Positions 4,641 to 61,345 of a stretch of DNA of 64,000 nt are shown here, piece after piece. The DNA is from Aspidiotus rigidus (taxonomy: Eukaryota > Arthropoda > Insecta > Hemiptera > Diaspididae), in assembly GCA_035079385.1 (NCBI GenBank), contig JAVHKY010000054.1, positions 9,649,501 to 9,713,500 of the forward strand, read 5' to 3'. The number at the start of each line of letters is the position of its first letter. The first letter of the stretch is position 1. Both the position numbers and the translations under genes were made by a program. The notes below the pieces were generated by a model. The model saw only the letters and a list, made by a program, of their open reading frames with translations, searched no databases and was not told where the DNA came from.

Positions 4641-4734
4641 ATAAAGTAGATTTGTACAATTGAAAAACCCTTTTCTAATTTAAAAGTATATCCATTTCAC
4701 GTTCTATGCAACAGGAAATTCTACACAATATTTC

Positions 4735-7718: not shown

Positions 7719-9252
7719 AACAGGGAACCTGTTTTATGGGAGGCTATTTGAGAAATCTGCCGTGCGCCGTCCGCCGTCCGCCGTGCGCCGTCCAGCGAAA
7801 AACTTAGAAAAATTTCGACCCTCGAGCCATATATGATAGGAGAGGGACTTGGAAAAATTTCGACTCTCGAGCTATATATCATAGAAGGGGGACTTGGAAA
7901 AATTTCGACTCTCGAGCTATAGATGATAGGAGGGGGACTTGGAAAAATTTCGAATCTCGAGCTATAAATGATAGAAGGGGGACTTGGAAAAATGTCGACT
8001 CTCGAGCCATATATGATAGGAGGGGGACTTGGAAAAAATTTCGACTCTCGAGCTATAGATGATAGAAGGGGGGACTTGGAAAAAATTCGACTCTCGCGCC
8101 ATATGTGATAGGAGGGGGACTTGAAAAAATTTCGACTCTCGAGCTATATATGATAGAAGGGGGACTTGGAAAAAGTTTCGACTCTCGAGCTATAGATGAT
8201 AGACGGGGGGACTTGGAAGAAATTCGACTCTCGCGCCATATGTGATAGGAGGGGGACTTGGAAAAATTTCGACTCTCGAGCTATATATGATAGAAGGGGG
8301 ACTTGGAAAAATTTCAACTCTCGAGTCATATATGATAGGAGCGGGACTTAGAAAAAATTTCGACTCTCGAGCTATAGATGATAGGAGGGGGACTTGGAAA
8401 AATTTCGACTCTCGAGCTATATACTGTATATAGGAGGGGGACTTGGAAAAATTTCCACTCTCGAGCCATGTAAGATAGGAGGGGGACTTAGAAAAATTTC
8501 GACTCTCGAGCTATAGATGATAGGAGGGGGACTTAGAAAAATGTCGACTCTCGAGCCATATATGATAGGAGGGGGACTTGGAAAAAATTTCGACTCTCGA
8601 GCTATAGATGATAGAAGGGGGGGACTTGGAAAAAATTCGACTCTCGCGCCATATGTGATAGGAGGGGGACTTGGAAAAATTTCGACTCTCGAGCTATATA
8701 TGATAGAACGGGGACTTGGAAAAAATTTCGACTCTCGAGCTATAGATGATAGAAGGGGGGACTTGGAAGAAATTCGACTCTCGCGCCATATGTGATAGGA
8801 GAGGGACTTGGAAAAATTTCGACTCTCGAGCTATATATGATAGAAGGGGGACTTGGAAAAATTTCAACTCTCGAGTCATATATGATAGGAGAGGGACTTA
8901 GAAAAAATTTCGACTCTCGCGCCATATGTGATAGGAGGGGGACTTAGAAAAATTTCGACTCTCGAGCTATATATGATAGAAGGGGGACTTAGAAAAATTT
9001 AGCTATATATGATAGAAGGGGGACTTAGAAAAATTTCGACTCTCGAGCTATATATGATAGGAGAGGGACTTAGAAAAATTTCGACCCTCGAGCCATATAT
9101 GACTAATAGTTGATCTAGGCCTTTTTTTTACTACCTTTGTCCAAATCTAGGCTTCCTTGTTATCCTAGGTTTAGTCACCCTTGAATTCTCAAAACCGAAT
9201 CCATTTTGACTCATAAAACAGGTTCCCCGCGTTTCGTTAAGGAAGCCGTCGT
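7719..9252 (-). mobile_element. Satellite-bearing element, copy 1
   Basis: Starts with the self-complementary AACAGG-GAA-CCTGTT and ends with CATAAAACAGGTTCCC followed by the ~38-nt tail ending GCCGTCG. The subterminal 16-mer GGGAACCTGTTTTATG is inverted at the two ends. The interior is about 1.3 kb of a ~46 bp tandem repeat. The same unit recurs at 23911-24249, 24408-24915, 25198-25556, 32161-32821, 40763-41675, 47382-47591 (broken) and 63239-63555. No ORF other than repeat translation, so it is non-autonomous. Confidence 0.75.
7795..9105 (+). repeat. ~46 bp satellite array
   Basis: About 28 head-to-tail units built on 'GACTTGGAAAAATTTCGACT', 'CTCGAGCTATATATGATAG' and 'GAGGGG'. The units differ mainly in the length of the G and A runs, in AGC versus GCC after CTCGAG, and in CTCGCG variants. 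The unit length is not a multiple of three throughout, and open frames across it are repeat translation, not genes. Confidence 0.9.
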
Positions 9253-15600: not shown

Positions 15601-16828
15601 CTAATAGCGAATTGTTTAGTAGCCAATAAAATGACAAAAAAAGCAATAGCCAAGTTTTCAGCCAATCGTCGGTAAAGCAAGAAGCTAAAAGCTAGTTTTA
15701 AGTCAATCAGCATTTGCTTGACACCTCTGGAAATTAGAGACCTCGTTCACTGTGTGGTTCAGTGAAATAGTCGACGCGTTGCCATGATAACGCGTCAAAG
15801 TAGACTGCATGACGACTAGTTTAGTGCTATGATTGACATGCATAAGTCCAGTTCTAGTTGCAGCTTGGTTGTATGTGGTGAATATGACTTGTATTGTGTT
15901 TTTTTCAAAGTTTATTCCGTACTCTTTGGATACAAAATTTGTGGGTGAAATTCTTATCGTTGTGTTGAATGTAACTTTATAAATTGGAGTAGGGAAAAAA
16001 AGTTTTGAGTAGTTATGACAAAGCTTGAGTGCGAATCCCTTTGTCAGATACCACACTTTAAACTGTAAAATATTCAATCGCCGGAATTCACCGTTCTCGA
16101 GTTTCGACTAACATTTTGGTGAATTATACCTGGCAAGCGTTATAAAATACCTATAGCAAAATGAAAAGAACCATTTTACTGTTCCATGGAAATTGAGTTT
16201 TTTCGTTGATAAGTTTTGAACTAAAATTCGAGTGTACCTTCAACACTACTGTTTCAAAAAAAAATTTTAGTTTTGATTTGAGCCAGAAAGGCTCTAGCCG
16301 GGTAATAAGAGTGATCCGGCCTTAGTCGGGAATCTACAATTCAACTATCGGAAGTTGTTGGGGATAGAATAAAACTCTTATTTTCAAATTTTCAGCCACC
16401 TAAGTCTATTCTATCCTCTGTGATATTTAAAAATTGTTATTTTATTACATATAAAAATTCTACAGCTTGTAATTTTCAATGAATCCTCTTGTGCAAAATC
16501 GTGCTTTGGAAGGAAAATGAGTCATCTCAAGGGCCATTCGATATTCTTCCAAACGCCAATGGAAAAAAAAAAAAAAATTCCATATAAAATGCAAATTTTC
16601 TAATTAAATTTGTTTTTTCACGTATGTTGTTACAGAGGGTCCAAGCTAGAAACAATATATATGAAGTATTGGACGATCACCTAAAACATATATTTTTTTC
16701 AGAATTTTTGAAAGGGTGGAAGACCACCAAAAATTGAGGTTTGTAAACAGTTGCCGAGTCTCGCTGATAACGTCGCGTTACATCGTTTTCGGATTTGGCT
16801 TCGCACTCCTCGAATTTTTTACCATCTC

Positions 16829-18915
16829 CAGAGTGTTACAACGACTGGAGGATTTCTTTAATACTTTTTACAAACTTGGCGGACGTCTGTAAATAAGAAT
16901 CGACCTTATCGATAAACGAAGTACTAATTTTCAGTATTCTCCAGCATAAAAAAGTATATTTTCTCAATTTTTTTTTATTTCTAGATCGTTCCAGTGACTG
17001 GAGAATTTTTTGAATAATTTTTTTGATCTCGTCGAACGAGTTTACATAAGAGTGCACCTAATCGAAAATTGAAATACAAAGAATCAGAATCCTCCAGGTT
17101 GAAAAAATGGATTTTCTCGATCTTTTTGGGTTTCTAGACCGTTCCAGTGGCTGGAGAATTTTTTAACTAACTTTTTCAAACTCGGCGGACGTCTGTATAT
17201 AAGAATCGACCTTATCGATAAACGAAATACTAATTTTCAGTATTCTCCAGAATAAAAAAGTATATTTTCTCGATTTTTCTTTATTTCTAGATCGTTCCAG
17301 TGACTGGAGAATTTTTTGAATAATCTTTTTGATCTCGTCGAACGTGTTTACATAAGAATTTACCTAATCGAAAATTGAAATACAAAGAATCAGAATCCTC
17401 CAGGTTGAAAAAATGGATTTTCTCGATCTTTTTGTGTTTCTAGACCGTTCCAGTGGCTGGAGAATTTTTTAACTAACTTTTTCAAACTCGGCGGACGTCT
17501 GTATAATATAGGAATTGACCTTATCGATGAACGAAATACTAATTTTCAGTATTCTCCAGGTTAAAAAAGTATTATTTTCTCGATTTTTTCTTTTCTCTAG
17601 ATCGTTCCAGTGACTGGAGAATATTTTGAATAATTTTTTTGATCTCGTCGAACGTGTTTACAGAAGAATTCACCTAATCAAAAATTGAAATACAAAGAAT
17701 CAGAATCCTCCAGGTTGAAAAAATGGATTTTCTCGATCTTTTTGTGTTTCTAGGTAGATCGTTCCAGCGGCTGGAGAATTTTTTAACCAATTTTTTCGCG
17801 AACATCTGTATAAGAATTGACCTTATCGATGAACGAAATACTAATTTTCAGTATTCTCCAGGTTAAAAAAATATTTTTTCTCGATTTTTCTTCATTTCTA
17901 GATCGTTCCAGTGACTGGAGAATTTTTTGAATAATTTTTTTTATCTCGTCGAACGTGTTTACATAAGAATTTACCTAATCGAAAATTGAAATACAAAGAA
18001 TCAGAATCCTCCAGGTTGAAAAAATGGATTTTCTCGATCTTTTTGTGTTTCTAGACCGTTCCAGTGGCTGGAGAATTTTTTAACTAACTTTTTCAAACTC
18101 GGCGGACGTCTGTATAATATAGGAATTGACCTTATCGATGAACGAAATACTAATTTTCAGTATTCTCCAGGTTAAAAAAGTATTATTTTCTCGATTTTTT
18201 CTTTTCTCTAGATCGTTCCAGTGACTGGAGAATATTTTGAATAATTTTTTTGATCTCGTCGAACGTGTTTACATAAGAATTTACTTAATCGAAAATTAAA
18301 ATACAAAGAATCAGAATCCTCCAGGTTGAAAAAGTGGATTTTCTCGACTTTTTCATCATTTCTTGACAGTTCCAGCGACTGGAGAATTTTTCGACTATTT
18401 TTTTCGAACTCAACAGACATGTTTACTTAAGAATTGACCTAATTGATGAACGATAGACCAAAACTCACGGTTCTCTAGGTTGAAAAAGTGGATTTTCTCG
18501 CTTTTTATCATTTTCAGACCGTTCCAGCGACTGGAGAATTTTTTGACTATTTTTTTCGAACTCGACGGACATGTTTACTTAAGAATTGACCAAATTGATG
18601 AACCAAATACGAACAATCACGGTTCTCCAGGTTGAAAAAGTGGATTTTCACGATTCTTTACTGTTTCCAGAACGTTCCAGCGACTGAAGAATTTTTTGAC
18701 TACTTTTTTCGAACTCAACGGCCATGTTTACTTAAGAGTTGACCAAATTGATGAACGAAACACAAATAATCACGATTCTGCAAGTTGAAAAATTGGATTT
18801 TCTCGATTCTCTACTATTTCCAGAACCTTCCAGCGACTGAAGAATTTTTTGACTATTTTTTTTTTGAACTCGGTGGACGTTTTTACATAAGAATCGACCT
18901 ATTTGATAAACGAAA
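16829..18915 (-). repeat. ~170 bp tandem array with two-unit (~345 bp) higher-order period
   Basis: About 12 units share 'GTTCCAG(T/C)GACTGGAGAATTTTT', 'CTCGTCGAACG' or 'CTCGGCGGACG', 'CTATTGATAAACGAAATAC'-like text and 'CTCCAGGTTGAAAAA'. Two alternating subtypes give a higher-order repeat in the left part; right-hand units are more diverged and single. The GTTCCAGTGACTGGA-type core is an imperfect inverted repeat. Short ORFs here are repeat translation. Confidence 0.8.
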
Positions 18916-18969
18916 TACATACTGAAAATAGATTCTTGTCCAGCTAAATGTACGTTTCATCCCACATTG

Positions 18970-25174: not shown

Positions 25175-25692
25175 ATATCGCGACTCTAGTTCCAAAACGA
25201 CGGCTTCCTTAACGAAGTTAAACGAGGAACGCAGGGAACCTGTTTTATGAGTCGAATGGGATTTGGTATTGAAAATTCAAGGAAGCCTAGACCTAGATAA
25301 AGATAGTATAAAGAAGGCCTAGACCTACTATAAGCCTATCATAATATAGTTTGAGAATCTAAATTTTTCTCGCTCGAGAGTCGAAATTTTTCCAAGTCCC
25401 CCTTCTATCATATATAGCTCGAGAGTCGAAATTTTTCTAAGTCCCTCTCCTATCATATATGGCTCGAGGGTCGACATTTTTCTAAGTTTTTCGCTGGACG
25501 GCGCACGGCGCACGCCAGATTTCTCAAATAGCCCCCCATAAAATTGGTTCCCTGTTAAAATCTCGTAAGTCCGAAAAACCCAAAATTTGTTCTATCAGTC
25601 TCAACTGATTCAGAACAGTGCAGTGTAGGAAATAAGAAAATACAAAAACCCCAAAATTGATAAAAATGGACTTACGACTAGAGTCGCGATAT
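25175..25692. repeat. Inverted-repeat element split by a satellite element
   Basis: ATATCGCGACTCTAGT (25175-25190) is exactly inverted at 25677-25692. A second pair (CGTAAGTCC near 25565, inverted near 25668) continues the arms once the satellite element at 25198-25556 is removed, so the original was a ~160 bp hairpin-type element. Confidence 0.55.
25198..25556 (+). mobile_element. Satellite-bearing element, copy 3
   Basis: Begins CGACGGCTTCCTTAACG and ends GGTTCCCTGTT, followed by AAAA as in copies 4 and 5. About three satellite units inside. It is inserted in the arm of an inverted-repeat element. Confidence 0.75.
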
Positions 25693-27895: not shown

Positions 27896-28582
27896 CTACG
27901 AGTCAACGAAATGTGAATCATTCCCGTAGACTAATTCGATCAATCCTTCTTCAGGAATGTACCTGTTGAAAACGGTAACGCTACTATTATTCTGATGTCG
28001 GAGGATTTCCATTTCCGCAAGGGCCAGACGCTGGAAAAAAGAGTTTTCCCAAAGAAGGAGGACTTCGGACCCCTCATTAAAGTTGTGACCACTTTTGATC
28101 AAATGATCAGCAAAGGCTGACTCCCCTACTTTCTTTTTCCTCCAAGCTTTTTTATGTTCGTCAACTCTAATTTGTAGCTGACGCCTGGTCATTCCTATAT
28201 AGACGCTAGGGCAATCTCCACAAGCCACCCTATAAACCCATCCCCTCTCGGCCACTGGGATAGGATCCTTTAGTGTGACGAAAAGGCTCTTAACCGTGTT
28301 TACATTATAGAAGGCCGGTAGAAAACCGAAGGGGCGGAGGATACAGCCCAACTCCGATGAAAACTAGCCCAGAAACGAGAGCTTAATCCACCGTTTCCTA
28401 CCATCTTGGTGTAAATCCCGGGGGAGGGAGGTCGTAGAGTCGAGGCGTTTCCTTGTGAGCCTCCTACGAACCATAAGGTCAACATCAACCCTGACCTGGT
28501 TGACTCTAGCCAGATGCTTTATAATCGAATTAATTCGGTTTTCTAAAATATGACCAGAAACATCTAACGACGACATACTCAA
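27896..28582 (-). pseudogene. PLE-B1: RT-deleted Penelope-like unit (leader + GIY-YIG), one nonsense codon
   Basis: A single frame starts M-S-M-S-S-L-D-V-S-G-H-I-L-E-N-R-I-N and jumps directly to I-I-K-H-L-A-R-V-N, the segment that follows the RT domain in full-length relatives. It then runs through the connector (L-R-P-F-G-F) into a GIY-YIG nuclease (V-Y-R-V-A-C, C-x-S-V-Y-I-G-M-T-R-R) and ends G-L-I-E-L-V-Y. Roughly 500 codons of RT are absent. One TAG at about 28364 interrupts it. It lies just downstream of PLE-B2 and the hammerhead at 28632-28671. The sequence differs clearly from PLE-B2, so it is not a simple duplication of it. Confidence 0.85.
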
Positions 28583-28631
28583 CGATTAAAACGTACGGAG
28601 TAATTTGAATAGAGCCACAGAAATGAAAATA

Positions 28632-28671
28632 CACCGGAGCGCTTTCGATTAAAAAACCATTGTCAACGGGG
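28632..28671 (-). ncRNA. Hammerhead-like ribozyme with U3-A8 core variant
   Basis: Minus-strand core UUGACAA (28660-28666), stem II GGUU/AAUC, GAAA, palindromic loop GCGC closed by the A-U pair, and the predicted cleavage site GCGCUC/CGG. Stem I is CCG/CGG. Relative to the canonical CUGANGA box, both C3 and G8 are changed, to U and A, which keeps them complementary. It sits between the stop of PLE-B2 and the ATG of PLE-B1. The core is identical to that at 42136-42175. Confidence 0.65.
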
Positions 28672-28711
28672 ACGTGAAAGCAACTGAACCAACTCCGGCC
28701 GGCAACAAGAA

Positions 28712-31120
28712 CTACCGAGGAGGACATGACTGAACTAGCGAGTCGTCACAATGTGAATCATACTCGTAAACTAATTCAATCAAACCCTCATCAGGTATGT
28801 ACCTGTTGAGCACATTTAGGTTATCGTTATTCAGATGGCGAATAATTTCGATGTGTTCTAGCGTGGTACGCTTGAAAGCCGAGGACTCTCTATGGAGGAG
28901 GGACTCAGATCCCTCTATGAAATCATGGCCAGTGGTAATAAGATGGTCTGCAAATGCCGAATCACCCAATTTCTTCTTTTCCCACGCCTTCCTATGCTCA
29001 TCTATTCTAATTTTGAGCTCACGTCCAGTCTCGCCTATATAGATTCCATTACAATCATTACACTAAATTTTGTAAACCCCGCTTCTTTCGACCAGTGGGA
29101 TGGGGTCCTTTAACTTAACGAACAAGCTTTTTACAGTGTTAAGATTGTAAAACACTGGCCGAAACCAAAATGGGCGGAGGACACGACCTAATTGGGAAGA
29201 AAATTTCCCCAAAAACGGAAGCCTAATCCAACGTTTCCTACTATCTGACGCTGGATTACGGGGGAGGGAGATAGTGGAATCAAAGCATTTCCGAGTCAAT
29301 TTCCTATGGACCATCAAGTCAATATCCAAGCTGATCTCGTTCACTCTGGCCAAGTGCTTTATAGTCGAGAGCTCCTGTTGAAAAGCGAGCTGACCTAATG
29401 GAATACTCGTCAACCGGTGGATATAACTATTAAAACCGGCATATTTGTGAGCAACAGGGCAGAAAGATCTGCCGTGGACAGTAATATCGGTCGAGGTATC
29501 TTTTCTATATATGGCGAATTCGTGGGCACCTTCTCTATTAGAGATAGTAAGGTCCAAAAAAATTATAGTTGAACCGCCTACTTCCAACATGAATTTGATG
29601 GATGGGTATAAACTGTTAAGATACCTGAGAAACTCCAAAAGGAGATCCCGTTGACCGGTCCACAAACACAACACATCGTCGACGTACCTGTGCCAATAAT
29701 ATATAATATGACCCAAAAACCCCTGACCAGAGGAAAAGAGATCAAGCTCAAATTTAGACATGAAAACCTCCGAAATGAGGAAACCCAGAGGAGAGCCAAT
29801 AGGGACACCTACCTCCTCGAGAAATTCGAAAAATTTGCCTTCAAATTTGCAAAAGTTGGGAGACCAACAAATATTGAGTAAATTTAAAAATTCTGCCAAC
29901 TCTTCGTGACAGATATTAGATTGGATCAAAAGGTCTCCCATATGTTGCATGGCAGTAGCTCTAGGGATACTCGGAAATAAGCCGACAACGTCAAAGGAGC
30001 ATAGGGTTGAATCAGGCGGAAGAATGTCATCCTTAAGCTTATTAGCCAAAGAGACCGAATTCTTCACAGAGTAGGATGACTCAAATTCCACTCTAGATTT
30101 GAACCAACGGTCCAAAAATTTCGCCAAGAAGTACGTGGGGGAAGACACGAAAGAAACGACCGGCCGCATCGGGGTGTCCCTCTTATGAACCTTAGGTAGC
30201 CCGTACAAGAGGGGCGGCACTGGATTGGGCTCAAGAAGCATTCTTTTAGGCTTAGGGGTCTTAATAATAAATTCACAATTATTTATAACACGTCTAACTT
30301 CTTTGACGTGATTTGGAAAATTGAAATCCGCATTTTCCTTGGCGCCACACTGGTCGAGAACGTCGTAGACCTTGGAGACGTAAGAGGACTTATCCATAAC
30401 GACAATGGCATTCCCTTTATCAGCCTTAGTAATGGTTAAGCTCTCCTCCCTGACTTTCCTCTTGATCCTCTTAATCACCTTAAAAGCCAGATCATTTATA
30501 CGAGGGAGGGGGGTATGGCGGACAAGGGCGGCACACGCTTTCTGAGTATTAACCCCAGGCCCAATTTTTATTTCGAGGTCCGCAACAACATTGGCCAAAG
30601 TGTTAGCATTATTAAGAGGGGGTAACCCGAATTTTAACCCCTACAACTCGTCACTCTCAAACTCAACATTACTACAATTTATAATCTGCGGTTGAAACTT
30701 TTGGATAACGCTGACGTCAGTACTCACTTCCTGGACAGCGGAGGCATTCAAATTTAGGAGGGAGCTAAGCTTCTTATTTTTCTTACGTTTCAATTTAGCC
30801 TCAAAAGACCGACATTTAAGGTTAACCGACTTAATAAACAGATCCAACTCACCCGGCGAAAGTAAACCAGAAAGCTTAGAATGGACCAACAAGTTCAACC
30901 TTGTGGTGATATTCAGCTTCCCATGCCACCTCCGCAACTCAGTACGGATCCATTTTTCTGTCAAAAATTTTTCCAGTTTCCTGGTGGTCTGAACACAATT
31001 GGAAAACAGCCGAAATTTGATAAACTTGGGTTTCACATGCAATTTTAAACACTTATTAAGAAACCAAATATGGAATGAAAACGACAACCGTTGGTTATTT
31101 TTGTGAAGTTTCGTAACCAA
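28712..31120 (-). pseudogene. PLE-B2: near full-length Penelope-like RT + GIY-YIG, two nonsense codons
   Basis: One frame of about 803 codons with TAG at 30641-30643 and TAG at 29063-29065. The N-terminal third is basic and helical. RT motifs: T-I-T-K-A-D-K-G, K-V-H-K-R-D-T-P-M-R-P-V-V-S, C-S-F-D-V-V-G-L-F (A), G-V-P-I-G-S-P-L-G (B), Y-V-D-D-V-L-C-L-W (C), F-L-D-L-T-I-S (D). Then comes the GIY-YIG segment G-I-Y-I-G-E-T-G-R and a C-terminus ending V-Q-S-C-P-P-R. PLE-C carries GAG where this copy has the second TAG, so that stop is a point mutation. The copy is 5'-truncated: the M-S-S-L-D leader is absent, and it ends in an inverted-repeat junction with PLE-B3 at 31084-31127. Confidence 0.93.
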
Positions 31121-31127
31121 CGGTTGT

Positions 31128-31886
31128 AGGCTATTAAAAGTAGCAACTTTGTGGGAAACAGGTACGAAGACGACCCGTGGATAGTAATATCGGTCGAGGT
31201 ATTTTTCCTGTAAATACCAAATTGATGGACGCCGTCAGTGAGGGAAATACACAAGTCCAAACAGTTCATAACGGAGCCACCAACTTCCAATGTAAATTTT
31301 ATGGAAGGATAAAGGCTGTTTAAATAATGAAGAAACTCGCTAAGGAGTTCTGTTGGACCGGTCCACGCACACAAAACGTCGTCAACGTACCTGTGCCAAT
31401 AATGTATACGACTCACGAACACCTGGCCTGAAGACAACAGGTCGCCCTCAAATTTAGACATGAAAACTTCTGGAATAAGAGAACCCAAAGGAGATCCAAG
31501 AGGGATTCCTACCTCTTCAGGAAACTCGTAGAATTTACCATTAAATTTACAAAAGTTCGGGAACCAACAGACCCTCAATAGGTCAAAGAATTCGCCATTT
31601 ACTCGTGCGGGACACCAGATTTTACAAGTAACTCGCCCATCCGCTGCATAGTAGCAGCCTTTGGGATGTTGGGAAATAACCCCACCACGTCGAAGGAACA
31701 TAAAGTTACGCCTTGAGGGAGGGAAACATCCTTTAGGTTGTTAGCGAGGGTACACGAATTCAATACAGAATGGGGCGACTCGAACTCCACTCTAGACTTG
31801 AACCAGCGATTGAGAAATTTTAAGGGAGTAGGTCGGAGAGGCGACAAAAGAGACTACGGGTCGCATAGGTACTCCTCCCTTATGAA
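31128..31886 (-). pseudogene. PLE-B3: truncated Penelope-like RT fragment, frameshifted
   Basis: Starts in M-R-P-V-V-S-F and contains motifs A (C-S-F-D-V-V-G-L-F), B (G-I-P-L-G-S-P-L-G) and C (Y-V-D-D-V-L-C-A-W), ending in Y-R-K-N-T-S-T-D-I. The frame changes near 31605. The 5' side is cut by the AAACATGTTT-type minisatellite and the 3' side by PLE-B2. Its sequence is distinct from PLE-B2, so it is a separate lineage. Confidence 0.88.
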
Positions 31887-32950
31887 TATGTTTCTAAACA
31901 AAAAAAAACATGTTTTACAAAAAAAACATGTTTTTAAACAAAAAGTTATGTTTTTAAACAAAAAACATGTTTTTAAACAAAAAACATGTTTTTAAACAAA
32001 AAACATGTTTTTAAACAAAAAAAACATGTTTTCAAACAAAAAACATGTTTTCAAACAAAAAAACATGTTTTTAAACGAAAAACTTGTTTTTAAACGAAAA
32101 ACTTGTTTTTAAACAAAAAAACTTGTTTTAAAACAAAAAACATGTTTTTAAACAAAAAAATGACGGCTTCCTTAACGAAGTTAAACGAGGAACGCAGGGA
32201 ACCTGTTTTATGATTCGAATGAGATTTGGTATTGAAAATTCAAGGAAGCCTAGATCATATATAGCTCGACAGTCGAAATTTTTCTAAGTCCCTCTCCTAT
32301 CATATATAGCTCGAGAATCGAAATTTTTCCAAGTCCCCCTTCTATCATATATAGCTCGAGAGTCGAAATTTTTCCAAGTCCCCCTCCTATCATATATGGC
32401 TCGAGAGTCGAAATTTTTCTAAGTCCCCCTTCTATCATATATAGCTCGAGAGTCGACATTTTTCTAAGTCCCCCTCCTATCATATATAGCTCGAGAGTCG
32501 AAATTTTTTCTAAGTCTCCCTCCTATCATATATAGCTTGAGAGTCGAAATTTTTCTAAGTCCCCCTCCTATCATCTATAGCTCGAGAGTCGAAATTTTTC
32601 TAAGTCCCCCTCCTATCATATGTATATAGCTCGAGAGTCGAAATTTTTTCTAAGTCCCCCTCCTATCATATATAGCTCGAGAGTCGAAATTTTTCTAAGT
32701 CCCTCTCCTATCATATATGGCTCGAGGGTCGAAATTTTTCTAAGTTTTTCGCTGGACGGCGGACGGCGGACGGCGGACGGCAGATTTCTCAAATAGCCCC
32801 CCATAAAACAGGTTCCCTGTTAAAAAAAACATGTTTTAAAACAAAAAAACATGTTTTTAAACAAAAAAACATTTTCAAACTGAAAAAATATTTTTTCAAG
32901 CTAAAAAACCTGTTTTCAAACTTAAAAAATATGTTTTTGAACTAAAAAGA
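31887..32950 (+). repeat. ~17-19 bp minisatellite (AAACAAAAAACATGTTTTT), split
   Basis: Units built on 'AAACAAAAAACATGTTTTT' occupy 31887-32160 and resume at 32822-32950 after a satellite-bearing element. Each unit contains AAACATGTTT, which is self-complementary. The last units diverge into 'tttttcaaactaaaaaa'. Confidence 0.88.
32161..32821 (+). mobile_element. Satellite-bearing element, copy 4
   Basis: TGACGGCTTCCTTAACG at the left end, GGTTCCCTGTT at the right end, and about ten satellite units inside. It is inserted inside the minisatellite, flanked by A-runs on both sides. Its termini match copy 5, whose insertion is independently datable. Confidence 0.85.
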
Positions 32951-36910: not shown

Positions 36911-39054
36911 CTGGAACATCAAATTAGATTCGAGAATTTTAATCAACAGAATTCATAACAGTTTCTTGTGAAATGAATAAACGATCGTAAATCATATACT
37001 TTCTGCAAATAATGTGTAAGTACGAAGATAAAAGAGACCTAAAAGCATTATGGGTTGTGGTTGTACCTAAGAAAGCTAGAAAGACTGAATAATTGCATCG
37101 ATTTCAGTGGCAGGGGGCAGTAGGAGACCCCCCACATCTTAATTCAAAATGAGTCGAAATTATCTCGAGTGCCTCTCTTCGTATATAGCTCCTTCAAGTA
37201 AAGTGTCTCCCTTTCGTTCTTTACTCAAAATTTTTCCGTCTCAAGTTCTCATGATTAAGTCACACTGCAATGACATCATGTATCTTTCTCCTGGTCAATG
37301 ATCCTATTTTCCCGTTCGTCAAAATTTTTTCAAGTTTCTCAGCCATCGCTCCACCTGGGTAAAGACTAATATGTTTGGGCTCAATGGTAGATTCTCCGAT
37401 GATCTCATTTATACGAATACAAATCAAGAACTAGGATTTGAGACGAATTCACCGTGTTTGGATACCAAAAATGAAAATAAAATCGAGAAAATAATGTTCT
37501 TTCTCGTTTTAGGTCTCTGCTAAGATTTTGAGATTTCAGTTCTATAAATTTCATCGAACAAGTAACGATTAAAAAATAAAGTGGATATATTATTTGGGCC
37601 AGTTAGGAACTATGGCTACTCTGGCGTCTATATTTTTATGCAGGAGAAGATTGCGTGTTCTAGAGCCTGCCCTCCCAAAGATGAAGCGGAGAAATCCTTA
37701 ACGAGCGCTATCAATAATTTATTTAATGGCTTATATAGTGGAAACACGTTCTTATGGACATATTTACTTCTCATCCTTTTCATTACGTTTTTCACATAAA
37801 CATAGTGTTAAACTGTCGATGTCATGCACTATCATAGAATAAAAATACCACAAACAGTTATCTTTCTTTTATGTGTATTATTTCGACTTAATGACTCGTA
37901 CTTATTTCACGAAAAATACTTTCTTTATACGGTATTTTCAAGTTGGTAAATCAGAAGTTGGCTTGTCGAGTTGGACGATTGATAACGATACAAAAAACCT
38001 GCAAGAAATACCCGACATTCAATTTACGATTACAACATCCTTATTATCCTCAATTATCAGCGCAATAGAACAGGGATCGTAAGTAGGTACTACCGTAAGT
38101 AAGAAAGCTGTAGCAGTGGTATAAACAACAAGGAAAACATCGCAGCGCCAATTAATGGTACTGCGATCGATTCTTTTTCCATCGAGATATTCGTGAAAAT
38201 CCTTTTCGAAAATTAAGTTTTCTCAATCTATATACAGACGTCAAATTTCCATTCAAAAGCAATCATACACCAAGTACTAGTACAACGTGGTATACCTGCG
38301 TTTCAGAGGACAGTAGGTAGGTTCTCGAAGGAAATTGATGTAGTAAAAACTAATTTCATATTCTCTGTTTTGTATACATAACGCGCTGTACTGCTGAACA
38401 TCTATTTCCTTTATTTGCGCTCATAACGATGCATTCTACAATCTCGAGTGCTGTCGTATTTTGAGTCAACGACCGACGCAAATAAATTGACTATCGCCAT
38501 TTCTTTATCCGCGCCCTCCCTGAATACAATCATCATCTTTGCGCAATAATTCCAGTACCTCCGTCACTGGATGTAACGAGAATCCAAATTATCTAATAAT
38601 TGTGTGTCACGAGTTTTTCTTTTGAAAATACAATAAGATTAAATACGAAAAATATAACGATCATCCTTTCAATTGGGAGAAAATATACTTGAAGGTATCA
38701 AAAAGTATGAGATAAACTGAAAGTTCTCTCACAGTTTTCTATATTTTCTTTCTTTCTAATTGCACTAGAGATATAAACTTTTAGGAAAAATTGGCGAGAC
38801 AGGAGAGGATGTTATGGATGGAAGAAAGAGAGATGAAAAAATTTGGTAGATATTGAGGAAAGATACTTGGATGGGACAAGCGAATATGTGACTGGCTGAT
38901 AGGGTGTAGTCCAGGTTGCAATGTTCGCACGAGCGAGATAAACGTTGGAAAGGGGTAAAAAAATATGACCTTGACCGTACATGGGGAATAGGACAATCCT
39001 CTAGAGAGAGGACTTAAAAAAATTTCGAGCTGTGAACTTTCATTAAATGGAAGA
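36911..39054. other. Intron DNA, nothing recognised
   Basis: Start of the 26.8 kb Pde8 intron (3' side). Unique-looking AT-rich sequence with a few small open frames but no family signature. Confidence 0.4.
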
Positions 39055-39335
39055 GAAATAAACGTGAAAGACGAATACTCCGACGTGGAGTAAAACATGC
39101 AAACCGCAGAAAAATAAAAGACGACGAGTGCTTTCGGTTAAATAACTATCTTCAAGCCTGAAATAAAAGCAACTGACGAACAAAAGAGAAGAACGAGGTA
39201 TTAAGATCGTCCAATGGAACAATTGATTCGGTTCTCTAAAATATGACCAGAAACATCTAACGACGACATACTCAACGATTAAAACGTACGGAGTAATTTG
39301 AATAGAGCCACAGAAATGAAAATACACCGGAGCGT
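39055..39335 (-). mobile_element. PLE mini-derivative: leader + 16-codon start + 3' ribozyme region
   Basis: On the minus strand: the leader identical to that of PLE-D and PLE-B1, then ATG with M-S-S-L-D-V-S-G-H-I-L-E-N-R-I-N, then directly the 3' untranslated part seen after PLE-D (43070-43215), including a hammerhead-like core. All RT and nuclease coding is gone. It points away from PLE-C and joins it head to head at 39335/39336. Confidence 0.75.
39120..39161 (-). ncRNA. Hammerhead-like ribozyme, U3/G8 variant
   Basis: Minus-strand core UUGAAGA (39149-39155), stem II AGUU/AACC-type, then GAAA and loop GCAC before UC. It corresponds to 43118-43158, but its loop is not palindromic here (GCAC versus GCGC) and stem II has one weaker pair, so it may be decayed. 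Confidence 0.5.
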
Positions 39336-42095
39336 GGGGTTAATACTCAGAAAGCGTGTGCCGCCTTTGTCCGCCATACCCCCCTCCCTCGTATAAATGA
39401 TCTGGCTTTTGAGGTGATTAAGAGGAACAAGAGGAAGGTCAGGGAGGAGGGCTTAACCATAACTAAGGCTGATAAAGGTAATGACATTGTCGTTATGGAT
39501 GAGTCCTCTTACGTCTCCAAGGTCTATGACGTTCTCGACCAGTGTGGCGCCAAGGAAAATGCGGATTTCAATTTTCCAAATCACGTCAAAGAAGTTAGAC
39601 GTGTTATAAACACTTGTGAATTCATTATTAAGACCCCCTAAGCTTAAAAGAATGCTTCTTGAGCCCAATCCAGTGCCGCCCCTCTTGTACGGGGTACCTA
39701 AGGTTCATAAGAGGGACACCCCGATGCGGCCAGTCGTTTCTTTTGTGTCTTCCCCCACGTACTTCTTGAGGAAATTTTTGGATCGTTGGTTCAAATCTAG
39801 AGTGGAATTTGAGTCATCCTACTCTGTGCAGAATTCGGTCTCTTTGGCTAATAAGCTTAAGGATGCCATTCTTCCGCCTGATTCAACCCTATGCTCCTTT
39901 GACGTTGTCGGCTTATTTCCGAGTATCCCTAGAGCTACTGCCATGCAACATATGAGAGACCTTTTGATCCAATCTAATATCTGTCACGAAGAGTTGGCAG
40001 AATTTTTTAATTTACTCAATATTTGTTGGTCTCCCAACTTTTGCAAATTTGAAGGCAAATTTTTCGAGTTTCCTGAGGAGGTAGGTATCCCTATTGGCTC
40101 TCCTCTGGGTTCCCTCATTTCGGAGGTTTTCATGTCTACATTTGAGCTTGATCTCTTTTCCTCCGGTCAGGGGTTTTTGGGTCATATATATTATTGGCAC
40201 AGGTACGTCGACGATGTGTTGTGTTTGTGGACCGGTCAACGGGATCTCCTTTTGGAGTTTCTCAGGTATCTTAACAGTTTATATCCATCCATCAAATTTA
40301 CGTTAGAAGTAGGCGGTTCATCTATAAATTTTTTGGACCTTACTATCTCTCATAGAGAAGGTGCCCACGAATTCGCCGTACATAGAAAAGATACCTCGAC
40401 CGATATTACTGTCCACGGCAGATCTTTCTGCCTGGTTGCTCACAAATATGCCGGTTTTAATAGTTATATCCACCGTTTGACGAATATTCCATTAGGTCAG
40501 CTCGCTTTTCAACAGGAGCTTTTGACTATAAAGCACTTGGCCAGAGTGAACGAGATCAGCTTGGATATTGACTTGATGGTCCATAGGAAATTGACTCGGA
40601 AATGCCTTGATTCCACTACCTCCCTCCCCCGTAATCCAGCGTCAGATAGTAGGAAACGTTGGATTAGGCTTCCGTTTTTGGAGAAATTTTCTTCCCAGTT
40701 AGGTCGTGTTCTCCGCCCATTTGGGTTTCGGCCAGTGTTTTACAATCTGAACACTGTAAAAATGACGGCTTCCTTAACGAAGTTAAACGAGGAACGCAGG
40801 GAACCTGTTTTATGATTCGAATGAGATTTGGTATTGAAAATTCAAGGAAGCCTAGATCATATATAGCTCGACAGTCGAAATTTTTTTCAAGTCCCTCTCC
40901 TATCATATATGGCTCGAGAGTCGAAATTTTTCTGAGTCCCCCTCCTATCATATATAGCTCGAGAGTCGAAAATTTCTAAGTTCCCCTTCTATCATCTATA
41001 GCTCGAGAGTCGAAATTTTTCTAAGTCCCTCTCCTATCATATATGGCTCGAGGATCGAAATTTTTCTAAGTCCCCCTTCTATCATATATAGCTCGAGAGT
41101 CGAAATTTTTCAAGTCTCCCCTCCTATCATATATAGAAAATTTTTCCAAGTCTCTCTCCTATTATATAGCTCGAGAGTCGAAAATTTTCCAAGTCCCTCT
41201 CCTGTCATATAGCTCGAGAGTCGAAATTTTTCTAAGTCCCCCTTCTATCATATATAGCTCGAGAGTCAAAATTTTTCTAAGTCCCTCTCCTATCATATAT
41301 GGCTCGAGGATCGAAATTTTTCTAAATCCCCCTTCTATCATCTATAGCTCGAGAGTCGAAATTTTTCTAAGTCCCCCTCCTATCACATATGGCTCGAGAG
41401 TCGAAATTTTTCTAAGTCCCCCTCCTATCATATATAGCTCGAGAGTCGAAATTTTTTCTAAGTGCCCCTCCTATCATACATAGTTCGAGAGTCGAAATTT
41501 TTTCCAAGTCCCCCTCCTATCATATATAGTTCGAGAGTCGAAATTTTTCTAAGTCCCTCTCCTATTATATATGGCTCGAGGGTCGAAATTTTTCTAAGTT
41601 TTTCGCTGGACGGCGCACGGCGGACGGCGGACGGCAGATTTCTCAAATAGCCCCCCATAAAACAGGTTCCCTGTTAAAAGCTTGTTCGTTAAGTTAAAGG
41701 ACCCCATCCCACTGGTCGAAAGAAGCGGGGTTTACAAAATTGAGTGTAATGATTGTAATGGAATCTATATAGGCGAGACTGGACGTCAGCTCAAAATTAG
41801 AATAGATGAGCATAGGAAGGCGCGGGAAAAGAAGAAATTGGGTGATTCGGCATTTGCGGACCATCTTATTACCACTGGCCATGGTTTCATAGAGGGATCT
41901 GAGTCCCTCCTCCATAGAGAGTCCTCGGCTTTCAAACGTACCGCGCTAGAACACATCGAAATTATTCGCCATCTGAATAACGATAACCTAAATGTGCTCA
42001 ACAGGTACATACCTGATGAGGGTTTGATTGAATTAGTTTACGAGTATGATTCACATTGTGATTACTCGCTAGTTCAGTCATGTCCTCCTCGGTAG
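39336..42095 (+). pseudogene. PLE-C: 5'-truncated Penelope-like unit, frameshifted, interrupted by satellite element
   Basis: Very close relative of PLE-B2, starting at its V-N-T-Q-K-A-C-A-A segment. All RT motifs are present (C-S-F-D-V-V-G-L-F, G-I-P-I-G-S-P-L-G, Y-V-D-D-V-L-C-L-W). An extra C in the C-run near 39638 shifts the frame. After N-T-V-K at about 40762 the frame is broken by the satellite element 40763-41675 and resumes S-L-F-V-K-L-K-D-P. The GIY-YIG part (G-I-Y-I-G-E-T-G-R) follows intact and ends V-Q-S-C-P-P-R. Where PLE-B2 has its second TAG, this copy has GAG. Confidence 0.93.
40763..41675 (+). mobile_element. Satellite-bearing element, copy 5, inside PLE-C
   Basis: Left end TGACGGCTTCC, right end GGTTCCCTGTT, about 15 satellite units inside, 913 bp in all. 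The uninterrupted homologous site in PLE-B2 (near 29140, minus strand) reads ACTGTAAAAAGCTTG. The filled site reads ...GTAAAAA / element / AAAAGCTTG, consistent with a 4-bp AAAA duplication. This is the clearest proof that the satellite block moves as one unit. Confidence 0.9.
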
Positions 42096-42135
42096 TTCTT
42101 GTTGTCGGCCGGAGTTGGTTCAGTTGCTTTCACGT

Positions 42136-42175
42136 CCCCGTTGACAATGGTTTTTTAATCGAAAGCGCTCCGGCG
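42136..42175 (+). ncRNA. Hammerhead-like ribozyme between PLE-C and PLE-D, U3-A8 variant
   Basis: Core UUGACAA (42141-42147), one extra U, stem II GGUU/AAUC (42149-42152 with 42157-42160), GAAA (42161-42164), palindromic loop GCGC, expected cleavage after C42170. Stem I pairs CCG (42138-42140) with CGG (42171-42173). Its position between two tandem PLE units is where PLE hammerheads are known to lie. Confidence 0.65.
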
Positions 42176-42224
42176 TATTTTCATTTCTGTGGCTCTATTC
42201 AAATTACTCCGTACGTTTTAATCG

Positions 42225-43077
42225 TTGAGTATGTCGTCGTTAGATCGTCCAATGGATTTATCGATCTCTATTGTAGACGGTATCCATGAGTTTGGAATTT
42301 ACAGGGAAGATACTAGGACCGATGTTTTAGTCCACGGTGGTTCGTTCGGTCCTGTTGCTCACAAGATGGCTGCTTTTCATAGCCTAGTTCACAGATTGAC
42401 TCGTATTCCGTTGAGTCAGTCTGCCTTCAAGAAAGAGTTAATCACAATAAAACACCTGGCCAGAGTGAATGGGGTCAATGTCGATGTTGACGTGATGGTT
42501 CGGAGGAAAATTACGAGGGGCCTCCTGGATTCCACGACCTCCCTCCCCCAAGACACGATCCGTGATCGCCGTTTGCGTTGGATCAGTCTCCCTTTCTTGG
42601 GGAAGTTCTCCCAGCAATTGGGTCGGGCCCTTCGCCCGTTTGGCTTCAGACCCGCGTTTTACAACCCTACCACAGTCAAGAGGTTGTTTGTGAGACTGAA
42701 GGACCCCATACCTGTCGATGAGAGGAGTGGTGTGTATAAGTTGGAGTGTGAGGATTGTGGAGGCTTTTATATTGGTGAGTCCAGCCGCCAAATGAAAGTT
42801 AGAGTAGCTGAGCACCTGAAGTCTTGGAAGAAGGGACACTTACGGAGTCAGCTTTTACTGATCACTTAATGAACAGTGGCCACAGCCTCCGCGAGGGATC
42901 CGGAAAGCTCCTCCATAAGGAGAATTCCTACCGTAAGCGTATCGCCCTCGAGAATATAGAGATAATTCGTCATCTCCCCCTGACGGTATCACTGTACTCA
43001 ATTCGTACATTCCGGAAGATGGCCTGATCGAACTGATTTATGATTCGCACCGTGTTTTCTCGTTTGGACAATCTTAA
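42225..43077 (+). pseudogene. PLE-D: RT-deleted Penelope-like unit with frameshift in GIY-YIG part
   Basis: Starts M-S-M-S-S-L-D and passes straight to M-D-L-S-I-S-I-V-D-G-I-H-E-F-G-I-Y-R-E-D-T, which is RT motif D onward. It continues I-K-H-L-A-R-V-N, the connector R-P-F-G-F-R-P-A-F-Y, and the nuclease G-F-Y-I-G-E-S-S-R. The frame shifts near 42835 and the C-terminal part (F-T-D-H-L-M-N-S-G-H-S) continues in another frame to about 43027. RT motifs 1 to C are missing. It follows PLE-C and a ribozyme in the same order seen for PLE-B2 and PLE-B1. Confidence 0.85.
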
Positions 43078-43117
43078 TACCTTGCTCTTCTTTTCTGTTC
43101 GTCAGTTGCTTTCATTT

Positions 43118-43158
43118 CAGGCTTGAAGATGGTTATTTAACCGAAAGCGCTCGTCTTC
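43118..43158 (+). ncRNA. Hammerhead-like ribozyme after PLE-D, U3-G8 variant
   Basis: Core UUGAAGA (43123-43129), extra U, stem II GGUU/AACC closed by AUUU, GAAA (43143-43146), palindromic loop GCGC, cleavage expected after C43152. Stem I pairs AGGC (43119-43122) with GUCU (43153-43156), with one G-U pair. Only the U for C at position 3 departs from the usual box. Confidence 0.6.
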
Positions 43159-43534
43159 TTTTATTTTTCTGCGGTTTGCATGTTTTACTCCACGTCGGAG
43201 TATTCGTCTTTCACGTTTATTATGGATAGCCGTAACTTGAAGGGACGGATTCGTTTAAATGGAAGAGACTTGAGAAATTTTGAGCTTTGAATCTTTCGAG
43301 GAGAGGAAGAAGTTTTACTAGGCTATAACTCTGACGTGTTAAGCTGGAATGGAGTTAAGAATCGAGTTTCAGATTGAACATAAGCTAGGTCCAGTAAAGA
43401 ACTTTACGGTAAAACTTGATATTCGGACATGTCAATAGGTTAGAATATTCAATTTCGAAACCAACCACAGCCACGGAACAATAACGAATTTTGTACAACC
43501 GTAGCCGAAAATGATACTAATATGGTCCTCTTAA

Positions 43535-49205: not shown

Positions 49206-49365
49206 AAAACCTATAAACTACATTTTTGGGGCTCTTGCCTGTGGCAAGGCTAGAGCCCATATGCATCAATTGCGAAAAAAAAGAGAACGAGAGAAAAAAA
49301 AAATTTGTAACTTGGTCATATTGTAGTATTATTAAATTTTCTGGCATAGCCAAATAAATGAAAAT

Positions 49366-50464
49366 CATGTTCCATGTCTTTTATATTTTATCAGTCATCA
49401 TGAAATATTTCAGTCTAGGCTTCTACTAGGTCAAGTGTTCGTGAGATATTATTCGTTTACCCCTTTACCTATCTTGGCGTCGTACAAGTCTTGTATGAGA
49501 AATATTTTGAGGTAATTGTGGGTGTTCTATATTTTGAGGTATCAACTTTCGGTGGGGCGAACGAGCGATCTCGCTGTTGTATTGGAATGGTATGAGACAA
49601 TTCAAGTCTAGGGGACTTGGAAAAATTTCGACTATCCAGCCATATATGATAGGAAGAGGGACTTAAAAAACTTTACCTATCTTGGCGTCGTATAAGTCTT
49701 CTATGAGAAATATGAGGTAGCGCGAACTCGCTCCGCTCGTTCGCCCCCTGTCTCGCTGTTGTATTGGAATGGTATGTGAGAATTCAAGTCTAGGGGACTT
49801 GGAAAAATTTCGACCATCCAGCCTTTATTTATTTAATTGTTTAATTATTCAATTATTTAAATATTTAATTATTTAATTATTTAATATTATTTATTTATTT
49901 ATTTATTTATTATTAATTCCTGTACTAGGTCAAGTGTTCGTGAGATATTATTCGTTTACCCCTTTACCTATCTTGGCGTCGTATAAGTCTTGTATGAGAA
50001 ATATTTTGAGGTAATTGTGGGTGTTCTATATTTTGAGGTATCAACTTTCGGTGGGGCGAACGAGCGATCTCGCTGTTGTATTGGAATGGTATGAGACAAT
50101 TCAAGTCTAGGGGACTTAAAAAAAATTCGACTATCCAGCCATATATGATAGGAAGAGGGACTTAGAAAATTTTCTAATTATCAATTATATTAATTATTTA
50201 ATTATTTAATTATTTATTTATTTAATTATTTAATTATTAATTGATTAATTAATTATTTATTTATTTATTTATTTAATTATTTAATTATTTAATTTTTTAT
50301 TATATTAATTAATTAATATTATTTATTATTATTACGCGGGTGTACTCGCGAATTTCTGAATCACCCACGGGGTAGAGATTTCTCTTGACGGGGGGGAGGG
50401 GGGAGGGGGGTGTACTCGCGAGTTTCAAAATCGGGGTCTGGCGAGAGAAAAGACATGGAACATG
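49366..50464. mobile_element. MITE-like element, copy 2, internally expanded
   Basis: Same 17-bp inverted ends as at 3647-4268 (49366-49382 and 50448-50464). It is longer (1.1 kb) because a unit starting 'cctttacctatcttggcgtc' with a satellite word and a TTTAATTA tract is repeated about three times (49460, 49675, 49960). Confidence 0.75.
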
Positions 50465-56780: not shown

Positions 56781-57152
56781 TTATTTTATGTTAATAAAAT
56801 TAATCATATTTAAAGTAATAAAAATATATGATTGAATTATAATGATAAAAATTTCAATTATTATGTATATATAAATTAAAATTTCTATTGATAATATATA
56901 TAAAATTAAATGTCCTATTATTATAATAATTATTAATCGTATTGAAATTGATAAAATTGAAAATAATAATCTATCAAATTCAATTAAATTAATAATTAAA
57001 ATTGGTGATAATGAAGTTTTATTTGGTGAAAGATTTAAAAAAATAATATTAGAAGTGTTTAAAAGGGCAAAAATTATAGTTATTAATCATAATATTATAG
57101 TTGGATTTAAAATAAATGTAATATTATGTGAAATTGAATATACTGTAATAGG
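56781..57152 (-). pseudogene. ATP6: ATP6 C-terminal part (mitochondrial, in NUMT)
   Basis: 124 codons including the stop, uninterrupted in the invertebrate mitochondrial code; one internal TGA must be read as Trp. Landmarks: S-H-N-I-T-F-I-L, L-S-P-N-K-T-S-L-S-P (equivalent of the V-P-Q-G-T-P loop), I-E-F, S-M-R-L-x-x-x-M-M-G-H-L-I (equivalent of R-L-x-A-N-M-x-A-G-H-L-L) and M-I-Q-S-Y-I-F (conserved I-Q-S-Y-V-F). It encodes membrane subunit a of ATP synthase in its native genome. In the nucleus it is not translatable. Confidence 0.85.
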
Positions 57153-57202
57153 TAATTATAATATTGAAAGAGAAAGAGAAAGAGGAAAGAGAGAGAGAGT
57201 GA

Positions 57203-59737: not shown

Positions 59738-59985
59738 TATACAGGGTGGGCCAGAAAGATGTTACCAGTTAAATGGGAGTTTGCGCTAAATCTGTCGTAG
59801 CGCGAAAACGCAAAACGTTAGACGTATAGTTTAAAATATGTACGAATTTCGTATCTTAATTTGAGCCGGACCCGAAATTTCTACAACTTTTCTGAGCTGA
59901 GTTATGGACCAAAATGTGCGGAAAATTCACCAAATCGTCAGGGTTCCCAAAATAGGGCTTGAAAATTAATTAATCTACAGTATTG
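59738..59985 (+). repeat. Possible MITE end ('ACAGGGTGGGCCAGAAAGAT')
   Basis: The stretch starting TACAGGGTGGGCCA is a widespread type of insect MITE or transposon terminus. The matching opposite end was not found, so only a fragment is claimed. It runs into the 140 bp array. Confidence 0.35.
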
Positions 59986-61345
59986 AACCGAATTTCGAGA
60001 ATTGTAATAATTAAATTGTTTCCTAAAAGAATTTGGACGGGGAAAACGAAAAAAATAGTAACAAAACCACAAGAAGCACCAAAATGGGCTATTGGGCCCA
60101 AAAAGGGTAAACATTTTCCCAAGGTGGAAAAACGTTCAAACATTCAAATTTTAATTCGATTTTCAAGTGGAATTTTGCGAGGAGTTCGAAAAAAATGCTG
60201 ACAGAGTTCTTCGAAGCACTAAAACGGGGTTAATGGGTCCAAAAAGGGTCAAAATTTTCCCAAATTGGAAAATTGTTCAAATTTTTAAATTTTAATTCGA
60301 TTTTTAAGTGGAATTTCGCGCTGAGTTCGAAAAAAATGCTCACAGCGTTATTTGAAGCACCAAAAATGAGTTAATGGGCCCCAAAAGAGCCAAAAATTTT
60401 TTTAATTGGAAAATTGTTCAAATTTTTTAATTTTGATTCGATTTTCAAGTGGGATTTCGCGCTGAGTTCGAAAAAAATGCTCACAGAGTTCTTCGAAGCA
60501 CCAAAATGGGGTTAATTGGCAAAAAGGGTCAAAATTTTCCCAAATTGGAAAATTGTTCAAATTTTTTAATTTTAATTCGATTTTTAAGTGGAATTTCGCG
60601 CTGAGTTCGAAAAAAATGCTCACAGCGTTCTTCGAAGCACCAAAAAGGGGTTAATAGGCCCAATAAGGACCAAAATTTTCTTAAATTGGAAAATTGTTCA
60701 AGTTTTCCAATTTTGATTCGATTTTCAAGTGGGATTTCGCGCTGAGTTCGAAAAAAATGCTCACAGAGTTCTTCGAAGCACCAAAATGGGGTTAATTGGC
60801 AAAAAGGGTCAAAATTTTCCCAAATTGGAAAATTGTTCAAATTTTTTAATTTTAATTCGATTTTTAAGTGGAATTTCGCGCTGAGTTCGAAAAAAATGCT
60901 CACAGAGTTCTTCGAAGCACCAAAATGGGGTTAATTGGCAAAAAGGGTCAAAATTTTCCCAAATTGGAAAATTGTTCAAATTTTTTAATTTTAATTCGAT
61001 TTTTAAGTGGAATTTCGCGCTGAGTTCGAAAAAAATGCTCACAGCGTTCTTCGAAGCACCAAAAAGGGGTTAATAGGCCCAAAAAGGGCCAAAATTTTCT
61101 AAATTGAAAAATTGTTCAAACGTTCAAATTTTAATTCGATTTTCAAGTGGAATTTCGCGCCGAGTCCAAAAAAAATGCTGAAATAATACTTCGGAACACC
61201 AAAATGGGTTGATGGACTCGCAGAGAATCAAAATTCCTCCAAGATGGATAATTGCGTAATCTTCAAATGTTGTTTTCAATTCTGGAGTAAATTTTTGCGC
61301 CGAGTCCAAAAAAAATACTGAAATGGCACTAGATGATTTCCAAAA
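59985..61345 (+). repeat. ~140 bp tandem array (about 10 units)
   Basis: The word GAAAAAAATGCTCACA recurs near 60188, 60329, 60468, 60610, 60750, 60890 and 61030 at 139-142 bp spacing, with diverged end units to 61345. Units also share 'CAAATTGGAAAATTGTTCAA' and 'GAAGCACCAAAA'. Alternating variants suggest a two-unit higher-order period. Minus-strand open frames across it are repeat translation. Confidence 0.9.

Follow-up and report, generated by a model that had tools for sequence, protein, structure and literature searches.

Can a natural hammerhead ribozyme carry U3-A8 in place of C3-G8, the core pair that holds the general-acid nucleotide of the textbook ribozyme, and is it pairing that keeps the two positions matched? 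The question is raised by a stretch of Aspidiotus rigidus DNA (contig JAVHKY010000054.1, positions 9,649,501 to 9,713,500), denoted here as the window; it was analyzed over its whole length of 64 kb, and all coordinates refer to it. Five small type I hammerhead motifs lie within the window, across three families of Penelope-like elements (PLEs), termed PLE-1, PLE-B, and PLE-A. With a probability of roughly 0.6, PLE-1 carries a small type I hammerhead with a palindromic stem III, of the kind belonging to the 3' untranslated region (UTR) or pseudo-long terminal repeat of PLEs, in which C3-G8 has been replaced by U3-A8. A U3-A8 family beside a sister family with U3-G8 would test which core pairings are tolerated and whether protein help relaxes them.

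Five hammerhead-like motifs in three element families

PLE-1 is found in two copies, PLE-1R and PLE-1L. The PLE-1R motif (42137-42176, + strand) has the core U3 U4 G5 A6 C7 A8 A9 at 42141-42147, followed by an extra U (42148), stem II (42149-42160), GAAA (42161-42164), and the palindrome AGCGCU (42164-42169); cleavage is predicted after C42170. The PLE-1L motif (28631-28670, - strand) likewise shows U3-A8, with its TTGACAA box at 28666-28660, and differs from the former in one of 40 nt, at the outermost unpaired column of the stem I 3' strand. PLE-B harbors U3-G8 at 43119-43158 (+; box TTGAAGA at 43123) and again at 39120-39159 (-; box TTGAAGA at 39155), within the inverted tail belonging to this insertion. 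This latter copy is decayed, with an A at position 10.1, GCAC in stem III, and the AUG lost. The fifth motif, at 4592-4631 (+), displays the canonical C3-G8 (box CTGATGA at 4596) and GUAC in stem III. Unrelated repeats lie between it and the PLE-A coding region, which ends ~0.9 kb upstream, and it probably belongs to PLE-A.

An earlier note on this DNA had described a TTGACAA box with U3 and A8 at two sites, a U3-G8 motif near 43118-43158, and C3-G8 in PLE-A, hence three pairable combinations at one pair within 64 kb. All were recovered, the canonical box at 4596 being taken as the PLE-A motif meant; the decayed copy was absent from its list. Its two U3-A8 copies, listed at 42136 and 28632, belong to a single family (98% identity over 575 nt) and therefore count as one event. 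Its statement that all other hammerhead features are kept holds for GAAA, AGCGCT, UC, and the strands of stems I and II, but not for the extra U, which stands between A9 and stem II in all five motifs. Stem I of PLE-1 is placed as described but has just three contiguous pairs, and pair 10.2-11.2 is G-U. Measured against the type I core (C3U4G5A6N7G8A9, G12A13A14, A15.1-U16.1, H17), PLE-1 departs at positions 3 (U) and 8 (A) and by the extra base, PLE-B departs through U3 (G8 is kept) and the extra base after A9, and the 4592 motif satisfies it in full save for that base. Stem III is self-complementary in four of the five motifs (AGCGCU, or AGUACU at 4592), this property being lost in the 39120 copy, and the motifs are located within elements encoding reverse transcriptase (RT) and GIY-YIG domains or, for 4592, ~0.9 kb downstream. 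By stem III and location they would be assigned to the small dimer-type hammerhead of PLEs.

Recognition by descriptor and covariance model

A descriptor (NTGANNA, zero or one extra base, stem II of at least 3, GAAA, palindromic stem III, UH, stem I of at least 3) matched the window four times (4596 +, 42141 +, 43123 +, and 28666 -), compared with a mean of 0.04 matches per dinucleotide-shuffled window (200 shuffles), a flattering contrast given that the descriptor was written after the motif had been seen. The motif with its box at 39155 (-) was missed. The hammerhead models of Rfam 15 gave no match up to E = 1 over the whole window and none up to E = 10 over 42080-43220 and 4500-4720. Since the Rfam gathering score for the hammerhead family is not reached by the window motifs, they are referred to as hammerhead-like motifs of the PLE type, not as matches to a curated model. 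A covariance model built from the five motifs themselves (R2) lists them, by construction, at 47-55 bits, and the next-best match in the window at 11.6 bits.

Beyond the window, a PLE search of viral contigs returned no match, and an alignment query on these contigs yielded 26 pattern stretches, none of which was confirmed. An unbiased motif pattern marked 21 stretches in the viral contigs, and three distant loci were found in GTDB genome contigs. Over all 24 loci, the descriptor matched in four of the 21 viral ones (L007, L010, L011, and L014), in no case at the pattern match, and model scores at the viral pattern matches were at most 22.9 bits versus 47-55 for the window motifs. One of the GTDB loci (L001) has a TTGATGA descriptor match when the palindrome requirement is dropped, antisense within the RT match; the covariance model did not list it up to E = 1, and it was taken as chance.

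Fold and covariation of the stems

The five motifs align without gaps over 40 columns: stem I (four columns), core box, the additional U, stem II, GAAA, a four-base loop of stem III that forms a self-complementary unit with A15.1 and U16.1 in four rows, UC, and the return strand of stem I. Three families stand behind the five rows, so independent events are few, and the structure was drawn from the same sequences that were used for the covariation test. Standard pairs fill 50 of 55 pair cells (90.9%), compared with 25.5-50% when partners are slid by 1-3 columns; the share is 85% in stem I, where the outermost pair is unpaired in three of five rows, and 93.3% in stem II. Both sides have changed in three of four stem I pairs, one of three stem II pairs, one stem III pair, and the 3-8 pair, and the palindrome of stem III differs between families (GCGC vs GUAC). 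The observed share of paired cells and the covariation score were reached in none of 500 column shuffles. As far as sequence comparison goes, the hammerhead fold is thus supported by the both-side changes in stem I together with the family-specific palindromes, and the covariation in stems I and II appears as expected of a type I hammerhead.

Origin of the U3-A8 state

PLE-1R and PLE-1L are separated by 65 substitutions (43 transitions) in 2001 aligned columns, yet the 40-nt motif, U3 and A8 included, is the same in both apart from a single base. Their 5' ends, 3' tails, orientations, and host sites differ, and they look like separate insertions. Since both carry U3-A8, the source element most likely had it already, and the state would be a family feature rather than post-insertion decay. 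No clear sign of selection between the copies emerged from a codon comparison of the RT and GIY parts, where 13 synonymous and 25 non-synonymous differing codons among 382 and three and six, respectively, among 138 were counted.

The 3-8 pair is standard in all five rows, in three types (U-A, U-G, and C-G). The related families PLE-1 and PLE-B have U3 in common and differ at this pair only in position 8 (A vs G), and C3-G8 occurs in the window only at the distant 4592 motif; the full double change therefore exists only in relation to distant PLE-A or to the canonical core. U3-A8 is seen in two copies of one family only, with other pair states elsewhere. Given the transition share between the PLE-1 copies (43/65), two changes would both be transitions with a probability of 0.44. 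These data fit a path from C-G via U-G to U-A; selection for pairing does not follow from them.

A conserved island with an initiator-like sequence and an AUG

Between PLE-1 and PLE-B, an island at 42120-42170 is identical in 41 of 51 positions, whereas the non-coding flanks match at 52 of 116 (Fisher p = 1.3e-5, an optimistic value, as the island limits were taken from the BLAST match). Its ten differences comprise two in the linker, four in stem I, N7, position 8, loop II, and pair 10.2-11.2. The island begins upstream of the PLE-1 hammerhead with TCAGTTGCTTTCA (42120-42132, +), which is conserved with PLE-B and holds an initiator-like TCAGTT. The initiator-like TCAGTTGC is located at 42120-42127 and 43102-43109 (+), its A 19 nt upstream of the core box; at the 4592 motif, CCAGTTGC (4581-4588, +) has its A at 4583, 13 nt upstream of the box.

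The downstream promoter element (DPE) has the consensus RGWYVT. TCAGTT occurs 44 times in the window, and a DPE match at +28 is found in two cases, both PLE-B motifs (base rate 0.0044); the test was made after the sequence had been seen. The DPE-like GGTTAT of PLE-B coincides with stem II, and the GGTTTT of PLE-1 at +28 departs from the consensus. An initiator plus DPE signal in the island is suggestive. Furthermore, the extra U turns A9-U-G10.1 into AUG, opening a frame of two to three codons inside the hammerhead: ATG GTT TTT TAA in PLE-1 (42147-42158, +), ATG GTT ATT TAA in PLE-B (43129-43140, +), and ATG GGA TAA at the 4592 motif (4602-4610, +). Such an AUG-(1-2 codons)-UAA frame is present in all three families and in four of five copies; the decayed one has ATA at 39149.

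Alternative explanations

A chance resemblance to hammerheads might be suspected from the shortness of the motif and the silence of the Rfam models, but it is disfavored because of the descriptor counts, all four matches lying in PLEs or ~0.9 kb downstream of one; the changes among the motifs are moreover consistent with the fold, which makes it highly improbable. A weightier alternative, which we regard as possible though improbable, is relaxed constraint. The hammerhead would then be unneeded or weakly needed for movement, its core would drift, and U3-G8 and U3-A8 would be ordinary transitions that stayed pairable. A history of two events with a chance of 0.44-0.52 of staying pairable suits this explanation, as do the visible decay of the inverted PLE-B copy and the absence of a clear coding constraint between the PLE-1 copies. 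In PLE-1R, PLE-1L, and PLE-B alike the 3' hammerhead is uncut, which means that the templates were not cleaved at this point, and hammerhead mutants of an Anolis PLE were without effect on insertion in vitro (PMC11167929). Drift fits less well with the fact that, positions 3, 7, and 8 aside, the PLE-1 copies and the 43119 copy have kept the core bases, stem II, and the palindrome of stem III, with an island better conserved than its flanks, and with a stem I changed on both sides. 

It is also conceivable, though quite unlikely, that the island is conserved mainly as a DNA or mRNA signal, composed of an internal TCAGTT initiator, a DPE in stem II, and a start codon, with the ribozyme secondary or lost. 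The conservation of TCAGTTGCTTTCA outside the hammerhead, the restriction of DPE matches to PLE-B motifs (2/44), and the short frame in all three families point in this direction, and PMC10290830 names TCAGTT as a Drosophila initiator of functional importance. The both-side changes of stem I and the GCGC/GUAC difference are, however, explained by a ribozyme and not by a promoter or frame, and the DPE evidence is post hoc and mismatched in PLE-1. An unlikely combination would give the ~50-bp island four jobs (initiator plus DPE, start codon, dimeric or protein-assisted hammerhead, and palindrome), with help from the element's own protein letting the 3-8 pair walk from C-G via U-G to U-A within a single genome; if true, the families would form a natural series for reading out the catalytic role of this pair.

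Several observations weigh against the preferred interpretation, a PLE hammerhead in which U3-A8 has replaced C3-G8. Evidence on the 3-8 pair comes from about two substitution events in total, and if each site changes once, chance alone keeps the pair standard with a probability of 0.52. The natural core covariation proposed earlier is borne out insofar as the pair is standard in every row, but it comes down to some two substitutions in three families, and chance would keep the pair standard about half the time. Column shuffles reached the observed number of both-side pairs in 35 of 500 cases and the number of pair types in 31 of 500, so that two of five covariation measures are not extreme. 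Because A8 follows C7, it could have come from a CpG, and CpG-type changes make up 12 of the 65 substitutions that separate the two PLE-1 copies; the observed/expected CpG ratio (1.01 in the window, 0.90 in PLE-1R) indicates no depletion, and such an ancestral origin of A8 is conceivable though not favored. U3-G8 in PLE-B may be weakly active. The constrained hammerhead fold lies 3.2-9.2 kcal/mol above the minimum free energy in five segments, and in the dimer minima of PLE-1 and PLE-B the core is paired differently. The predicted cut does not coincide with the start of the inverted PLE-1 tail, which lies ~5 nt further upstream. In the Anolis element, where hammerhead mutations left insertion in vitro unaffected, no reads started or ended at the cut site (PMC11167929). 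Lastly, among 198 cave-cricket hammerhead sequences, position 3 is reported changed in four and position 8 in two (PMC2837043), which makes changes at these positions rare.

Proposed mechanism

Under the preferred interpretation, the pair would have passed from C-G through U-G, a state persisting in the sister family PLE-B, to U-A. In the folded RNA, stems I and II would be joined by an intermolecular or tandem stem III that the AGCGCU palindrome provides, and cutting would take place at the predicted site. Position 8 is supposed to act via its 2'-OH, leaving the base free to change while pairing with position 3. Because it acts through the sugar and needs only a partner, the 3-8 pair could move to U-A at little cost; PMC6155905 sets out the roles played by G12 and the G8 2'-OH. 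We infer that the RNA cleaves, as a dimer or with the help of the element's protein, and that pairing, not chance, keeps positions 3 and 8 matched. In the folding calculations lone strands prefer other structures, as would be expected if a dimer or protein were required.

In two-copy folding, the PLE-1 core (42138-42150, +) pairs with itself (CCGUUG with CAAUGG), in a duplex aided by the U3 and A8 letters; in the model, such a duplex would compete with the ribozyme. An occluding hairpin between upstream GCUUUC and core GAAAGC was considered as a regulated off state and rejected, as shuffles of the upstream bases give no support: in five segments, an energy gap of no less than the observed size arose in 88-235 of 300 shuffles, and core pairing equalled or exceeded the observed level in 67-207 of 300.

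Element context and nested insertions

PLE protein matches were obtained at 1406-3682, 39330-40890, 41604-42080, and 42225-43071 (+) and at 27899-28576 and 28727-31890 (-), with arthropod PLE relatives among the matches listed. In PLE-1R, Pfam RVT_1 (PF00078) is found in 39616-40764 (29.7 bits, cut-off 29.6) and GIY-YIG (PF01541) in 41682-42092 (25.7 bits, cut-off 22.6). With RT and GIY-YIG domains in PLE-1R and the optional tail in PLE-1L, PLE-1 qualifies as a Penelope-like element. The PLE-B piece 42225-42866 gave no Pfam family, though PLE proteins match. The PLE-A coding region (1379-3694, +) comprises two stop-to-stop frames of 575 and 195 codons. Between it and the 4592 hammerhead lies the stretch 3615-3896, which is 95-96% alike to 49334-50173; both are situated beside TTTA-rich repeats.

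The body of PLE-1R consists of a 5'-truncated first part with the RT region (39332-40762, +) and a second part with the GIY-YIG endonuclease region, the 3' UTR including the hammerhead, and a short tail (41671-42245, +), separated by a 45-bp minisatellite insert (40763-41670). An inverted PLE-1 tail in its long form (39221-39334, -) is attached to the 5' end. The target-site duplication of 11-15 bp is located at 39204-39218 (left) and 42242-42256 (right) and forms an exact 15-bp repeat, the first four bases of which may be the element's own; in a random control of up to 4000 pairs of 51-base stretches (close pairs skipped), nine shared at least 11 bases. PLE-B (body and tail at 42252-43254, +, boundaries approximate) is likewise 5'-truncated, with an inverted tail at 39057-39214 (-) and 14-bp target-site duplications at 39043-39056 (left) and 43255-43268 (right). 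PLE-1R interrupts this insertion (39043-43268), its landing site being the inverted junction of PLE-B itself or a point very close to it. The tails of PLE-1R differ less (1/80 positions) than those of PLE-B (9/158), and this fits a younger age of PLE-1R.

PLE-1L (28529-31130, -) is set inside an older PLE (31131-31800 or beyond and ~27896-28528, -). At its site, 58 nt are missing relative to the PLE-1 sequence, and no target duplication of at least 6 bp was found at the insertion site. Its 3' end is 34 nt longer than that of PLE-1R, matching the optional 30-40 bp 3' tail of PLEs (PMC11167929). The tandem PLE units of the earlier note are hence to be replaced by nested insertions, two of the three with target duplications of 11-15 bp. 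The idea that the hammerhead cut defines the element ends was dropped, as the inverted tails start ~5 nt (PLE-1R) and ~89 nt (PLE-B) upstream of the cut.

Copies of the 45-bp minisatellite are present at 7757-9143, 25343-25521, and 32235-32779, besides the one inside PLE-1R (40763-41670). Three of them continue, near 25490, 32740, and 41600, into GC-rich stretches that resemble one another (GGACGGCG...), a hint of a mobile carrier.

Other features of the window

The AT-rich stretch 56781-57155 (-) is probably a nuclear copy of mitochondrial DNA; its translation with table 5 resembles, by eye, the end of insect mitochondrial ATP6. Together with the arthropod PLE relatives, this stretch hints that the host is an insect. 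Tandem arrays occupy 16739-18918 and 59962-61240, with periods of ~153 and 139-141 bp, respectively.

Comparison with known hammerhead systems

Small PLE hammerheads that cleave as dimers were reportedly described by Lunse, Weinberg and Breaker in 2017 and by Cervera and de la Pena in 2014. PMC7761336 and PMC6155905 present PLE hammerheads as minimal motifs of type I, possibly cleaving as dimers, and the motifs described here share the type I topology, the tiny stem III, the palindromic loop, and the PLE context. An experimental counterpart is the hammerhead of the Poseidon PLE PAc from Anolis carolinensis (Frangieh et al., 2024; PMC11167929). Its cleavage requires added protein; C3G and G8C each abolish it, and the double change partly restores it. 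The main frame of PAc begins at the start of stem II. PAc has C3-G8 and an AUG that opens the main frame, whereas in the window U3-A8 or U3-G8 is found in PLE-1 and PLE-B and the AUG opens a frame of two to three codons. An optional tail of 30-40 bp at the 3' end is common to PAc and PLE-1.

Among the papers listed in literature searches, few of which were consulted, no report of U3-A8 specific to PLEs came up. U3-A8 covariation as such is not new: according to Perreault et al. (2011; PMC3088659), U3/A8 covariation occurs in several natural hammerheads and is described as a compensatory change, and the in vitro activity of U3-A8 cores is credited there to earlier work (reference 32 of that paper being Przybilski and Hammann, 2007). 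Those hammerheads display the same C3-G8 to U3-A8 change as PLE-1; the difference is that, in the window, it belongs to a PLE family with a U-G sister alongside. The principle is already published, and PLE-1 adds to it no new rule but a well-placed example with a readable insertion history.
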